Positions 19,087 to 25,502 of a DNA stretch of 35,450 nucleotides are shown piece after piece. The notes beneath the pieces were generated by a model. That model did not search any database, had not been told where the DNA came from, and saw only the letters and a program-made list of their open reading frames with translations. How positions within the stretch are numbered: position 1 is the stretch's first letter; every line of letters begins with the position of its first letter. This stretch comes from a virus. Where the stretch lies: positions 1 through 35,450 of IMG/VR virus record IMGVR_UViG_3300048550_000720, one strand, 5' to 3'. A program made the position numbers and the translations under genes.

Positions 19087-19097
19087 CCCCTTAGGAG
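19087..19097 (+). promoter_or_regulatory. CCCCTTAGGAG start-associated box, first copy
   Basis: Eight bases before the ATG of the 26-residue peptide. The GGAG part is a normal ribosome-binding core. The CCCCTTA extension is conserved at five further starts, well beyond what ribosome pairing needs. Only a fragmentary CCTCGAGG lies upstream here; the second hairpin is absent. Confidence 0.7.
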
Positions 19098-19386: not shown

Positions 19387-19395
19387 CCGCCCCTG

Positions 19396-19475
19396 GACCG
19401 TGGCCCTCGAGCTGCCCGTAACCGGCTCGAGGTCCGCGGCCTAGCGGTAGCTAGGAAACCCTCACCCCTTAGGAG
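19396..19475 (+). repeat. Two-hairpin leader repeat, copy 1
   Basis: GACCGTG at 19396. Hairpin 1 is CCTCGAGC (19405-19412) with GCTCGAGG (19425-19432). Hairpin 2 is CCTAGC-GGTA-GCTAGG (19440-19455). The box CCCCTTAGGAG at 19465-19475 comes eight bases before the next ATG. Both stems are perfect. Confidence 0.8.
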
Positions 19476-19483
19476 ATAGGCCC

Positions 19484-19834
19484 ATGAGCAGCGAAAGCGC
19501 ACGCGAGTACGCCGCGGGTATCGCGGAAGGCTTGCCAACGTGGAAAGACCACCCCGAGCTCGCAGACGTCGAGGACTCAGAAAAGCCCTGGCAGTGGCTC
19601 GAGGGCACGCTCGACGTAGAGCGCACGTACAACAGCGAGAACGAGCTTATTTCCGTGCGAGTCCTAATCGCGTATGGCGGCCCTACATGTTGGGTTGTGT
19701 TCGACGGGGGCCCTATCGCCGACGTACAAGCCGCGTGGTGGTCACCTATCGAGACCGTGCGCACTCGAGGGAGTGAGCAAATTCAGGAGCTCGCAGAGCT
19801 GGTGTTTGAGCTATCCCCGCAAGCCCCCGCGTAG
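19484..19834 (+). CDS. Acidic small protein, function unknown
   Basis: 116 residues directly behind leader copy 1. It opens with a helix (SSESAREYAAGIAEGLPTWK), continues with an acidic Trp-containing segment (EDSEKPWQWLEGTLDVER), and has a beta-rich core with ISVRVLIAYGGPTCWVVFDG. An amphipathic helix (IQELAELVFELSP) closes the protein. The fold looks compact and real, but I recognise no family. It stands alone between two leader repeats, so it forms its own translational unit. Confidence 0.75.
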   Translation: MSSESAREYAAGIAEGLPTWKDHPELADVEDSEKPWQWLEGTLDVERTYNSENELISVRVLIAYGGPTCWVVFDGGPIADVQAAWWSPIETVRTRGSEQIQELAELVFELSPQAPA

Positions 19835-19840
19835 CCCCTT

Positions 19841-19923
19841 GACCGTGCGCCTCGAGCCCGTACCCCCCTCGAGCTCGAGCCGCGCGGCCTAGCGGCCCCG
19901 CTAGGACTGACACCCCTTAGGAG
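19841..19923 (+). repeat. Two-hairpin leader repeat, copy 2
   Basis: GACCGTG at 19841, then CCTCGAGC with a partner GCTCGAG. Hairpin 2 at 19888-19905 is extended by two base pairs compared with copy 1 (CCTAGCGG with CCGCTAGG). The box CCCCTTAGGAG at 19913-19923 ends five bases before the ATG. Confidence 0.8.
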
Positions 19924-19928
19924 AAACG

Positions 19929-20183
19929 ATGGACATTTACTGCCGCAAGTGTGGCGAGCCCTGGGACAACGACGAGCTGCACGAGCAAGCCGCCGAGAAT
20001 GGAAGCACCTACGCCGAAACCGCGCGCCGCTTTCGCGTGGAGGGTTGCGCAGTGTTCGAGTGGGCGACGCCGTGCACGCCCTCAAGCTCGAGTGCCGCGC
20101 CGCTTATCGCCGCCGCCTATGACCTACTCGGGGACGACATGGACGGAGTGACCGCGATCCTCGAGGACGCCGGAGCCGTCTAG
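19929..20183 (+). CDS. Small protein with N-terminal zinc-ribbon half
   Basis: 84 residues. The first 12 residues hold a CxxC pair (YCRKCGEPWD), with His nearby (DELHEQAAENG) and further Cys at positions 40 and 49, so one metal site is likely. The C-terminal half is a helix (LIAAAYDLLGDDMDGVTAIL). The opening YCRKCGEPWDNDEL is a type I know from small actinophage proteins of unknown role. It is flanked by leader repeats on both sides, hence a single-gene unit. Confidence 0.75.
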   Translation: MDIYCRKCGEPWDNDELHEQAAENGSTYAETARRFRVEGCAVFEWATPCTPSSSSAAPLIAAAYDLLGDDMDGVTAILEDAGAV

Positions 20184-20192
20184 TTATCCCGT

Positions 20193-20270
20193 GACCGTGC
20201 CCCTCGAGCCCGTACACGCTCGAGGAGCGCGGCCTAGGGATCAACCTAGGAAACCGCTACCCCTTAGGAG
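20193..20270 (+). repeat. Two-hairpin leader repeat, copy 3
   Basis: GACCGTG at 20193. Hairpin 1 is CCTCGAGC (20202-20209) with GCTCGAGG (20218-20225). Hairpin 2 is CCTAGG-GATCAA-CCTAGG (20233-20250): both sides have changed relative to copy 1, yet pairing is kept. The box CCCCTTAGGAG is at 20260-20270. Confidence 0.8.
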
Positions 20271-20278
20271 ATGAACGC

Positions 20279-20560
20279 ATGACCGTCGAATATGACCGCG
20301 CCGACATATGCGCAGACTGCCTTTACACCGACGCGAACGGATGGGACGAACGCGAAACCGGACGCCCCCTACCCGACCCCGTGCCACTAAACCGCCTCGA
20401 GGGTTACTTGATAGGCACGGACGTGGACAGCCTCGAGGACGTGGACGCCGTGCAAGCCGCGAACGAGCCTAGTTTTAGCTGGAGCCCGTGCCACGGTTGC
20501 GGCTCGACTCTAGGCGGTAACCGTTACACCGTGCGAATAGTCGAGAGCTCGAGCCGATGA
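20279..20560 (+). CDS. Cys-rich small protein, paralogue of the 21466 gene
   Basis: 93 residues behind leader copy 3. It has Cys pairs ADICADCLYTD near the start and SPCHGCGSTLGG near the end, four ligands suitable for one zinc ion. Between them lies PVPLNRLEGYLIGTDVDSLED. The same plan (Cys pair, PLxxLEGxxIG, then CHGC followed by a Tyr-rich strand) recurs in the gene at 21466-21735, so the two probably arose by duplication. Its stop overlaps the next start (ATGA). Confidence 0.75.
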   Translation: MTVEYDRADICADCLYTDANGWDERETGRPLPDPVPLNRLEGYLIGTDVDSLEDVDAVQAANEPSFSWSPCHGCGSTLGGNRYTVRIVESSSR

Positions 20561-21277: not shown

Positions 21278-21282
21278 GGCTG

Positions 21283-21353
21283 GACCGTGATCCTCGAGCT
21301 CAAGTCTGTTCGAGGGTCGCGGCCTAGCAAACAGCTAGGTAACCCCTTAGGAG
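21283..21353 (+). repeat. Two-hairpin leader repeat, copy 4
   Basis: GACCGTG at 21283. Hairpin 1 is CCTCGA (21292-21297) with TCGAGG (21310-21315). Hairpin 2 is CCTAGC-AAACA-GCTAGG (21323-21339). CCCCTTAGGAG at 21343-21353 starts only three bases after the stem, so folding and ribosome access may compete. Confidence 0.8.
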
Positions 21354-21358
21354 GAAAA

Positions 21359-21469
21359 ATGAGGATTACCCCCCTTATTCCATGCGTCGAGTGCGGTCGA
21401 GTGTTCGACCTACGCGACGAACAACAAGCCGCTGATTACTACTACGGTCACGATTGCGAGGCGTCATGA
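21359..21469 (+). CDS. 36-residue peptide with CxxC
   Basis: ATG five bases after the box of leader copy 4. The peptide contains IPCVECGRVFDLRDEQQAAD and a second His-Asp-Cys near the end (GHDCEAS), so Cys2-His-Cys metal binding is possible. First gene of a long overlapping unit. Confidence 0.65.
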   Translation: MRITPLIPCVECGRVFDLRDEQQAADYYYGHDCEAS

Positions 21470-22799: not shown

Positions 22800-22810
22800 C
22801 CCCTTAGGAG
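22800..22810 (+). promoter_or_regulatory. CCCCTTAGGAG start-associated box without hairpins
   Basis: Five bases before the ATG at 22816. The 50-base gap upstream is AT-rich (TATTTTCTGCTATTTTTG) and has no CTCGAG hairpins, so the box can occur alone. Confidence 0.7.
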
Positions 22811-22815
22811 GAAGC

Positions 22816-23040
22816 ATGGCCGAAGTAACGTCCCAAACGGACGCAACCGTAATCATTCTCAACTCGAGCGAAGCTGAACAGCTCGAGCGCGTATTCCACG
22901 ATTGGATTGACGACTCGTACAGCCGCGCCGTGGAGTGCGGCGATCCGGAAGTTCTCGAGACATACCAGGCAACCATCGGCACGCTTAGAGAGCTATTCGA
23001 CGCTATCTCGCCGAGCATTTTGGCGGGGGTAGACGCATGA
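22816..23040 (+). CDS. 74-residue acidic helical protein
   Basis: ATG behind the lone CCCCTTAGGAG box. A beta-strand start (SQTDATVIILNSSEAEQLER) is followed by an amphipathic helix (VFHDWIDDSYSRAVECG) and a second one (TLRELFDAISPSILAG). Between them the third GACATACCAGGC repeat encodes LETYQATIG. No family recognised. Confidence 0.7.
   Translation: MAEVTSQTDATVIILNSSEAEQLERVFHDWIDDSYSRAVECGDPEVLETYQATIGTLRELFDAISPSILAGVDA
22959..22976 (+). repeat. GACATACCAGGCAACCAT repeat, copy 3
   Basis: Identical to copy 1 over 18 bases but lies inside the 22816 gene, not at a start. Confidence 0.7.
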
Positions 23041-24102: not shown

Positions 24103-24566
24103 TTGCCCTTTTTGCAACCGTAACCCTCACAGCGTCACTGTTGAGTGGTGGGGGAGAGCCGCAGCTTCCAGCCGTAAAGCAAATCGGTGAGAAGTATCAC
24201 CCGTCGAGCGTAAGCCTGTACCAAGGCGAGGAGTACGTAGAAGGCGACAATCGGACGCGCCTGTGTATCAGGGATCGAGAGTCCAACGACATTTACTCCG
24301 CGGTGTCGAAGCCACCGAACACGTATCGAGGCGCGTACCAGATGAACGACGCCTTGATTGACGGTGCGGCGTGGATGATCCAAAAAAGTTTAAGAAAGCA
24401 GGGACATACCAGGCAACAATCGCAAAAAATCCGCAAAGAGTTGCAGGCCACCAAAGGCAACCAGATCGCCCCGTATTGGCAAGACCGCATGTTCTGGACG
24501 ATATGGAGGCAAGGCAAAGGCCGTGCGCATTGGTATCACACCGTCCCAGGGACAGCGTGTTTCTAA
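24099..24566 (+). CDS. Rpf-like secreted cell-wall hydrolase (lysozyme-like fold)
   Basis: 155 residues from TTG at 24099 (overlap TTGA). The N-terminal 17 residues are hydrophobic (IALFATVTLTASLLSG) and look like a signal peptide, although a positive charge is missing before them. The domain after residue 50 fits resuscitation-promoting-factor or transglycosylase-like proteins: LCIRDRESNDIYSAV with Glu61 as likely catalytic acid, then YRGAYQMNDALIDGAAW, and WQDRMFWTIWRQGKGRAHW near the end. Cys56 and Cys154 may form a disulphide. These enzymes cleave the glycan strand of actinobacterial peptidoglycan. The role may be lysis, or modification of the wall during entry or lysogeny. The fourth GACATACCAGGC repeat lies inside, in another frame. 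Confidence 0.7.
   Translation: MIALFATVTLTASLLSGGGEPQLPAVKQIGEKYHPSSVSLYQGEEYVEGDNRTRLCIRDRESNDIYSAVSKPPNTYRGAYQMNDALIDGAAWMIQKSLRKQGHTRQQSQKIRKELQATKGNQIAPYWQDRMFWTIWRQGKGRAHWYHTVPGTACF
24403..24420 (+). repeat. GACATACCAGGCAACAAT repeat, copy 4
   Basis: 17 of 18 bases match copies 1 and 3. Here it is read in a different frame (GHTRQQS instead of TYQATI), so conservation is of DNA or RNA, not protein. Confidence 0.65.
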
Positions 24567-24751
24567 TGTCCTGCACACACACCCTCGAGTCAGCGAAAGC
24601 GTGCGTCCTCTGCCTTGGGCGAGTTGATGACTTCACGTGCCCCGAGTGCAACAGCGACGACAACACTGTTCTGCAAGACGACTACGGGCCTAACAGAGTG
24701 ATCCTGTGCGAGTCGTGTCGCTACTTGTATGGGAGGCCGAAAGCCTCCTAG
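24566..24751 (+). CDS. 61-residue zinc-ribbon protein ending the array
   Basis: ATG overlaps the stop of the hydrolase (TAATG). The Cys pattern MSCTHTLESAKACVLCLG, then FTCPECNSDDN and LCESCRYLYGR gives three CxxC pairs and an extra Cys-His, a tandem ribbon. A small hairpin (GGAGGC with GCCTCC) lies in the last codons, just before the terminator. Probably nucleic-acid or RNA-polymerase contact, but the partner is unknown. Confidence 0.7.
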   Translation: MSCTHTLESAKACVLCLGRVDDFTCPECNSDDNTVLQDDYGPNRVILCESCRYLYGRPKAS

Positions 24752-24768
24752 CGTGCTACCATATGACT

Positions 24769-24814
24769 GGAACCTCCCGTGACTTCTCCTAAGGGGCGCG
24801 GGAGGTTCCTTTTT
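24769..24814 (+). terminator. Strong terminator of the small-gene array with box in its loop
   Basis: GGAACCTCCCG pairs with CGGGAGGTTCC (11 bp), followed by TTTTT. The 19-base loop contains CTCCTAAGGGG, the exact inverted copy of the CCCCTTAGGAG box (24786-24796). The right part overlaps the last codons of the opposite sigma-like gene. Confidence 0.8.
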
Positions 24815-25502
24815 CTTGCTCCTGAGTTTGAGCCACAGCCGCAGCGTTCGACTTCACCTCACGCATCCGTCGAGGTTGCTCCCCACCCAAAGCTCGAATG
24901 ATCCGATTGACAGCTCGAGATAGTTGATACCGCACAGTGCGCTCTGGCTTATCCATCGAGGCTGCCATGATCCCGACCTCGAGGCCACCATGCGCGAAAC
25001 GGTCATACAACAATGTCTTGTCTGCCGCTGGGAGTGACTGAAACCCTCGACGCACATCGGTAAGCATGGCCTGGTACTCGAAACCCTCAGATGGTTGCTT
25101 GCTCGAGGTTACGTAGGTTCCTCGAGGAGCAGCTGCCGTCATCGTTGTACCAGCGTCAGGCTCAAACACATCAGGCAAGAGTGTCTCGACCACGGCCTTA
25201 GTGTAAAAGTAGTAATCACCAGGCAGTGTTCCGTCACGCTCGATACGGTGCTTCTGGCAGATACCGTGCAAGTGGACACGCAGGCTAGAGCTCAACATGC
25301 CTCGAGCGTGCTTGCCGCTGGGGGAGTCGTCATCCTCGAGCCAGCCAGATACTTTTCGGGAGTTCTGAAACACCCACAGCCAAGCGTCCTGCTGTAGATC
25401 CTCGACGGGAATGATGTATCGCTGCTGCTTGCCAACCCCGTTCGAGACGCTACGAACCACTCGAGCCACCAGATTGTTTGTGAATAGTTCGTCGTTTACC
25501 AC
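24789..25502 (-). CDS. ECF-like RNA polymerase sigma factor
   Basis: 237 residues. GTG at 25502 overlaps the stop of the metallophosphoesterase gene. Residues 33-48 (VEDLQQDAWLWVFQNS) match the core-binding helix of sigma region 2. Residues about 155-207 contain SLPAADKTLLYDRFAHGG and DKPERTVRYQLSRAVNRIIR, the region 4 helix-turn-helix that reads -35 DNA. The linker between them is long (about 100 residues), and the Ala/Gln-rich tail is disordered. Sigma-like genes occur in several actinophages. I infer that it redirects host polymerase to phage promoters, perhaps the late operon. It is the last gene of the minus-strand replication block. Confidence 0.65.
   Translation of the reverse strand: MVNDELFTNNLVARVVRSVSNGVGKQQRYIIPVEDLQQDAWLWVFQNSRKVSGWLEDDDSPSGKHARGMLSSSLRVHLHGICQKHRIERDGTLPGDYYFYTKAVVETLLPDVFEPDAGTTMTAAAPRGTYVTSSKQPSEGFEYQAMLTDVRRGFQSLPAADKTLLYDRFAHGGLEVGIMAASMDKPERTVRYQLSRAVNRIIRALGGEQPRRMREVKSNAAAVAQTQEQEKGTSRAP

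Follow-up and report, generated by a model that had tools for sequence, protein, structure and literature searches.

A terminator loop complementary to a repeated start box in a phage gene array, and the co-variation of box and loop among related loci

Described start-box arrays and antisense loops

The Start Associated Sequences (SAS/ESAS) described in mycobacteriophages of Cluster K and in Microbacterium phages of Cluster EF are short constant boxes that overlap the ribosome site of non-structural genes, with an inverted-repeat element upstream of some of the boxes (PMC3203893; PMC7302621). The Cluster K SAS has been without known role since 2011. In Anaya, Adephagia, Angelica, and CrimD, a single SAS has the opposite orientation and lies away from gene starts (PMC3203893), and neither description, in the available portions, assigns the inverted K1 copy a role (PMC3203893; PMC7302621). 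The locus described here belongs to a 35,450-base virus record (the window, i.e., the whole stretch of DNA analysed). It has boxes and upstream elements of the same kind, of a different box sequence, and, like the K1 phages, a single inverted copy in a hairpin loop. The K1 hairpin differs from that of the window in having no U tail and in sitting in a long non-coding region, not in a terminator.

Antisense loops directed at ribosome sites have been studied elsewhere. The 6C/B11 sRNA of mycobacteria has loops complementary to the ribosome binding sites of several mRNAs, as here, and its repression has been demonstrated by compensatory mutants (PMC10470900). Unlike the element described here, 6C/B11 is a host sRNA with C-rich loops and G-rich targets, without a dedicated repeated box or a link to its own operon. 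In the c4 antisense RNA of phages P1 and P7 (reviewed in PMC12197685), complementary segments, probably in loops, likewise address the region around a ribosome binding site; c4 has one target (ant) instead of an array, and the segments do not lie in a terminator loop. OppZ and CarZ of Vibrio cholerae are RNAs from operon 3′ ends that pair with their own transcript and inhibit its translation (PMC7398697), which is what is proposed here. They are RNase E products established by experiment; here one phage terminator loop would address several repeated boxes, with box and loop co-varying. By its position and complementarity, as read from the DNA, the window hairpin would fit a self-repressing sRNA of the OppZ/CarZ type. 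Each element of the mechanism proposed below has a studied parallel, in the B11 loops, in c4 RNA, or in self-repressing 3′ UTR RNAs.

Start boxes and terminator of the window

In the window, a structural block is read leftward and an array of small genes rightward (about 18.6-24.75 kb). Past the array, the replication block runs leftward and ends in a sigma-factor-like ORF; an integrase is also present. The terminase has many relatives among viral contigs, and the nearest described phages by this protein are Streptomyces phages of the WRightOn type (about 42-43% identity). Scans of genome contigs with the terminase, and of viral contigs with the sigma protein, gave no matches, and the last ORF of the array has no Pfam match. 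The coordinates of the features are collected in Table 1.

Table 1. Features of the rightward array and of its convergent end.
Feature	Position	Strand	Remarks
Start box 1, CCCCTTAGGAG	19087..19097	+	ATG 8 nt on; 26-codon ORF
ESAS-like element upstream of box 2	19436..19455	+	GCGGCCTAG-N6-CTAGG; same module in relative G003
Start box 2, CCCCTTAGGAG	19465..19475	+	precedes ORF 19484-19834
ESAS-like elements upstream of boxes 3-5	19884..19905, 20229..20250, 21319..21339	+	similar to the box-2 element
Start box 3, CCCCTTAGGAG	19913..19923	+	precedes ORF 19929-20183
Start box 4, CCCCTTAGGAG	20260..20270	+	precedes ORF 20279-20560
Start box 5, CCCCTTAGGAG	21343..21353	+	ATG at 21359, 5 nt on
Start box 6, CCCCTTAGGAG	22800..22810	+	precedes ORF 22816-23040
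Last ORF of the array	24371..24751	+	126 aa, cysteine-rich, start uncertain; stops 17 nt before the terminator
Intrinsic terminator ending the array	24769..24814	+	13-bp stem (one G-U), anti-box at apex, TTTTT tail
Anti-box CTCCTAAGGGG	24786..24796	+	exact reverse complement of the start box, at the terminator apex; sole inverted copy in the window
Convergent sigma-factor-like gene	24789..25502	-	PHROG sigma-K family; TAG stop 24789-24791 inside the anti-box

The box CCCCTTAGGAG occurs exactly six times on the plus strand of the whole window and once on the minus strand, and no further copies appear when one mismatch is allowed. The six copies are identical and lie 5-8 nt ahead of starts between 19087 and 22810. 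The array has two features of SAS/ESAS arrays, namely a near-identical box of ~11-13 nt directly before several non-structural-gene starts (six exact copies here; relatives also have such boxes) and an inverted-repeat element upstream of a subset of boxes (boxes 2-5). The Cluster K consensus GGGATAGGAGCCC is not matched by CCCCTTAGGAG, so the window box is SAS-like and not the Cluster K SAS itself. The box was also considered as a plain Shine-Dalgarno (SD) sequence, a reading that leaves its conserved 5′ part and the class-C boxes described below unexplained.

Ahead of boxes 2-5 stands a composite module, GACCGTG..CCTCGAG..GCGGCCTAG-N-CTAGG (19393-19455, 19838-19905, 20190-20250, and 21280-21339), which is common to the window and its relative G003 and is possibly a promoter plus an ESAS-like hairpin. 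The palindrome in excess differs between lineages; in these two it is CTCGAG (105 copies in the window, where 10.6 are expected, and 101 in G003, where 12.1 are).

An earlier note, made from the sequence alone, had placed an exact reverse complement of the start box in the loop of the terminator that closes the array, and this proved correct (Table 1). The hairpin GGAACCTCCCGTG...CGCGGGAGGTTCC fills positions 24769-24809 and is followed by TTTTT at 24810-24814; G+C-rich, with a U run and just past the last ORF, it has the properties of an intrinsic terminator. Its predicted fold is -31.1 kcal/mol on the array strand and -23.0 on the other. As the TAG stop of the sigma-like ORF falls within the anti-box, a coding end and the terminator loop overlap on opposite strands. 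Chance would place the inverted 11-mer on the plus strand of the window 0.003-0.010 times; for a single loop of this type, taken to offer nine offsets, the figure is about 1e-6. The inverted box was also read as a start site on the minus strand; no ORF of useful length follows it. In the window and in L165, L189, L234, and L247, Rfam gave no family match at the curated threshold.

In the minimum-energy fold, a weak inner stem (CUUCU/AGGGG) partly closes the apex, so the box is predicted to be presented at the apex and not to be wholly single-stranded. The same note suggested that the loop could pair in trans with every upstream box. The loop is complementary to all six and, as in RNAs of the 6C/B11 type, to the ribosome sites of several genes, with predicted loop-box duplexes of -23.8 to -25.0 kcal/mol, at a cost of 6.1 kcal/mol to open the apex and of 1.9-4.3 kcal/mol to open a box. 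Duplexes of the loop with random array positions have a mean of -11.0 kcal/mol (sd 3.1), the lowest being -19.9.

Box and loop in related loci and in Cluster K

Box and loop pairs fall into classes. Class A is the window's own pair and is represented by one genome. Class B combines the start box GACAGGAGA with the array-end loop TTCTCTCCTGTC at 11 of 11 loci; at L189, the start box is GACAGGAGAA and the array-end terminator loop TTCTCTCCTGTC. Class C combines the box GACTGGA with the loop GGTTCCAGTCCC or close variants at all 19 loci and at two read elsewhere. A larger class-C set (L160, L163, L165, L171, L173, L178, L180, L182, L187, L192, L194, and L195) has AGACTGGAG or GGACTGGAA at its starts and GGTTCCAGTCCC, GGTACCAGTCCC, or TTCCAGTC in its array-end loops. 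The gene that faces the class-B and class-C terminators is named a dNMP kinase by database matches, and an alignment of this kinase was therefore used to gather more loci. In the kinase-adjacent terminators the known loops recur, together with a new variant, GGAACCAGTCCTCC, and several further loci have the class-B hairpin on different stems.

Box class equals loop class in every locus where both are readable (11 B/B, 19 C/C, and the window A/A), counts that are not independent events because the loci are related and some are near-duplicates. Outside this readable set stand L250 and L262, whose arrays are too short for boxes to be seen, and L171 and L180, whose loop lies outside the slice but had been read separately as class C. 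What carries the co-variation argument is the existence of three or more different box/loop pairs, of which B and C occur at a terminator facing the same gene. The window and class-B loci have their forward cores on the array strand and one inverted core, or little more than one.

The earlier note had proposed joint conservation of box and loop as a check and had named independent drift of the loop as the observation that would speak against its reading. Among relatives having both, box and loop change together, and their classes agree wherever both can be read. The arrangement is not universal. In G003 (L210 and L212) and G004 (L211 and L213), the two nearest relatives with a homologous convergent region, the terminator region has no anti-box; G003 has the window's upstream hairpin module, but looser ribosome sites around ACAGGAGA. 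Nor was an anti-box found in the deeper relatives L129, L137, L140, L142, and L148/L149. The Streptomyces phage WRightOn (L323) has its own start box, of the AACAAGGGAGAGAG type, and no inverted copy in the right part of the genome examined.

A plain terminator whose loop sequence is neutral or arose by coincidence would suit the case of G003, where the terminator ends the array without an anti-box, and terminators at array ends are common. Against this stand the low chance computed for the window loop (about 1e-6) and the recurrence of the same arrangement, with other box sequences, at about 30 related loci, and such a reading, already disfavoured, is scarcely credible.

When loops are exchanged between arrays, each matches mainly the start boxes of its own class. 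At 9 nt, the window loop matches 6 start sites in its own array, where the other loops match 0; the class-B loop matches 5.5 sites per class-B array and 0 in the window, and the window loop 0 in class-B arrays. For the main class-C loop, own matches fall from about 4 start sites at 7 nt to about 1 at 9 nt; the class thus depends on a 7-nt core, and loops of the GGTACCAGTCCC subclass match their own boxes over only about 7 nt. At that length, classes A and B cross-match, which is explained by the generic anti-SD part that every complement of a ribosome site shares.

This cross-match bears on the possibility that the loop is a generic presenter of anti-SD sequence, to which any CUCC-rich loop would look complementary, the boxes being merely strong ribosome sites. 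The window and class-B loops do contain CUCCU and match each other's arrays at 7 nt. At 9 nt, however, the A/B cross-matches are gone while the own matches remain (5.5-6 per array); the window match includes CCCCTT, which is not SD-like; and the class-C boxes (GACTGGA) are poor SD sequences, yet their loop has the complement CCAGTC. A generic anti-SD origin is accordingly quite unlikely, and a loop specific to its own boxes remains the preferred reading.

Two null models were less discriminating. A null of random 13-mers at 8 nt is weak for class C, because the shared core there is 7 nt, and a shuffled-loop null at 7 nt gives only 0.0095 for the window; the latter is blunt, since any CTCCT loop matches ribosome sites, and the 9-nt exchange is the sharper test. 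Among control terminators in the same arrays, almost none complements the start boxes, the exception being the GTTTAAAC loops of L156-L158, in which sense and antisense are indistinguishable because GTTTAAAC is a palindrome.

GTTTAAAC is found in a terminator loop of L156, L157, and L158 and before several of their starts, and in L175 before starts only. It is in excess in G004, L156, L182, L192, and L275 (23-39 copies against 0.2-0.5 expected). In L037 and L099, CCCCTTAGGAG precedes three starts and occurs once more on the opposite strand, next to a repeated GGTATACTACAGG-like element; these contigs were rejected as window-type cases, as the other-strand copy lies outside any terminator and appears to precede a divergent start. 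Contigs from pattern scans with single boxes and no array were likewise rejected as window-type relatives.

In Cluster K, the lone inverted SAS of Anaya and Angelica forms the loop of a strong hairpin. This loop, CCTCCTATCC, is identical in the ten K1-type phages compared, with a near version in Amohnition, and its stem is 98.9% paired, with two pairs changed on both sides. The hairpin sits between genes 92 and 93 (at about 58607-58767 in the Adephagia record), in a conserved region with little annotation to which RNA-seq maps the start of late transcription (PMC11373665). The CCTCCTATCC loop is absent from the K1-homologous region of the K3 phages Pixie and ShedlockHolmes, and in AnnaSerena, a phage with an SAS of its own, the examined part of the genome contains no inverted copy. 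As SAS-like boxes occur in these phages without a detected inverted copy, the anti-box is a frequent companion of start boxes and not a condition for them.

From the last boxed gene to the late genes, Cluster K genomes have a conserved non-coding stretch (L233 37700-38067, L234 36450-36832, and L235-L242). Within it are a terminator, two hairpins, and blocks that do not vary, for example GGCTGGTCACC; the stretch may serve as a late promoter region or encode an RNA.

RNA-level signals and proposed mechanism

In ten distinct class-B hairpins, stem cells are 100% paired and 5 of 12 pairs are changed on both sides, while CTCTCCTGTC is invariant in the loop. Class-C stems are almost wholly different around a constant CCAGTC. 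Of 19 hairpins, 13 have the more stable fold on the array strand (means of -26.8 kcal/mol for this strand and -23.9 for the other, p = 0.024), a modest result in which one of the 19 segments (L260) was centred on the wrong site. On the array strand, stems have 35 G-U against 7 A-C appositions, as counted by a finder that allows G-U; since this biases the stem count, the energy comparison is taken as the less biased strand test. Function at the RNA level is thus supported by the stem covariation and, weakly, by the strand asymmetry.

These signals also bear on whether the element acts as DNA, the box being a protein site (an operator, or a stoperator of the kind known from Cluster A mycobacteriophages) or a boundary for gene exchange, and the inverted copy one more such site. 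Sites of this kind form arrays in one orientation to transcription, for example the L5-type stoperators (PMC3203893; PMC4351075), and the inverted copy has the sense orientation for the leftward operon. However, the boxes lie at ribosome-site distance from starts, the inverted copy occupies a hairpin apex with a covarying stem and a fixed loop, and the fold of the array strand is on average more stable. Features of hairpins and ribosome sites are unexpected of a site in duplex DNA and count against this explanation, which is considered unlikely.

The functional copy could be carried by the leftward transcript, whose loop would show the sense box and serve as a decoy for a factor that binds the start box. 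The 5′ flanks of some hairpins are A-rich, and these hairpins may be bidirectional terminators. In the window, though, the T run is on the array side only, the 13 of 19 more stable folds are those of the array strand, and it is on this strand that stems tolerate G-U (by the count of a finder favouring G-U); a decoy of this type is very improbable.

The reading preferred here, and considered probable, is antisense control by the 3′ hairpin of the array transcript, which would pair with the start boxes and so reduce translation of its own block. The genes of the rightward array would be coordinated in translation, several of them carrying the same start box over the ribosome binding site, and the array transcript would end in the intrinsic terminator with the complementary loop. 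The hairpin RNA, whether processed from the 3′ end or still part of the transcript, would pair with the start boxes via its apex and compete with 30S binding, and in this proposal translation of the whole block would fall as the block transcript accumulates. Complementarity and the co-variation of box and loop are supported by observation, from which we infer pairing in the cell, action in trans, a released RNA, repression, and when in infection it acts. The sequence signature would be identical if the loop paired inside its own transcript or if it affected mRNA stability. The interpretation in the earlier note, of a released 3′ end that might act as an antisense regulator in a self-limiting loop, is partly supported, and the relatives lend it more weight than the window does by itself.

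The proposed system would belong to antisense control at ribosome sites, a known kind, here with a repeated start box and a co-varying terminator loop. More tentatively, and with somewhat less than an even chance, SAS-type arrays in several actinobacterial phage groups could be one half of a two-part RNA system, in which a co-evolving anti-box hairpin sets the translation of the block through a box/loop code of each lineage's own. Such control would be compact, as one RNA loop would set the translation of a whole phage gene block, and the lineage-specific codes may be mutually orthogonal. The co-varying anti-box hairpin can be tested cheaply in culturable phages (K1 mycobacteriophages, with public RNA-seq such as the Adephagia series GSE271014). 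If true, the two-part system would explain how the SAS, role-less since 2011, works, in K1 and the phages described here at the least.
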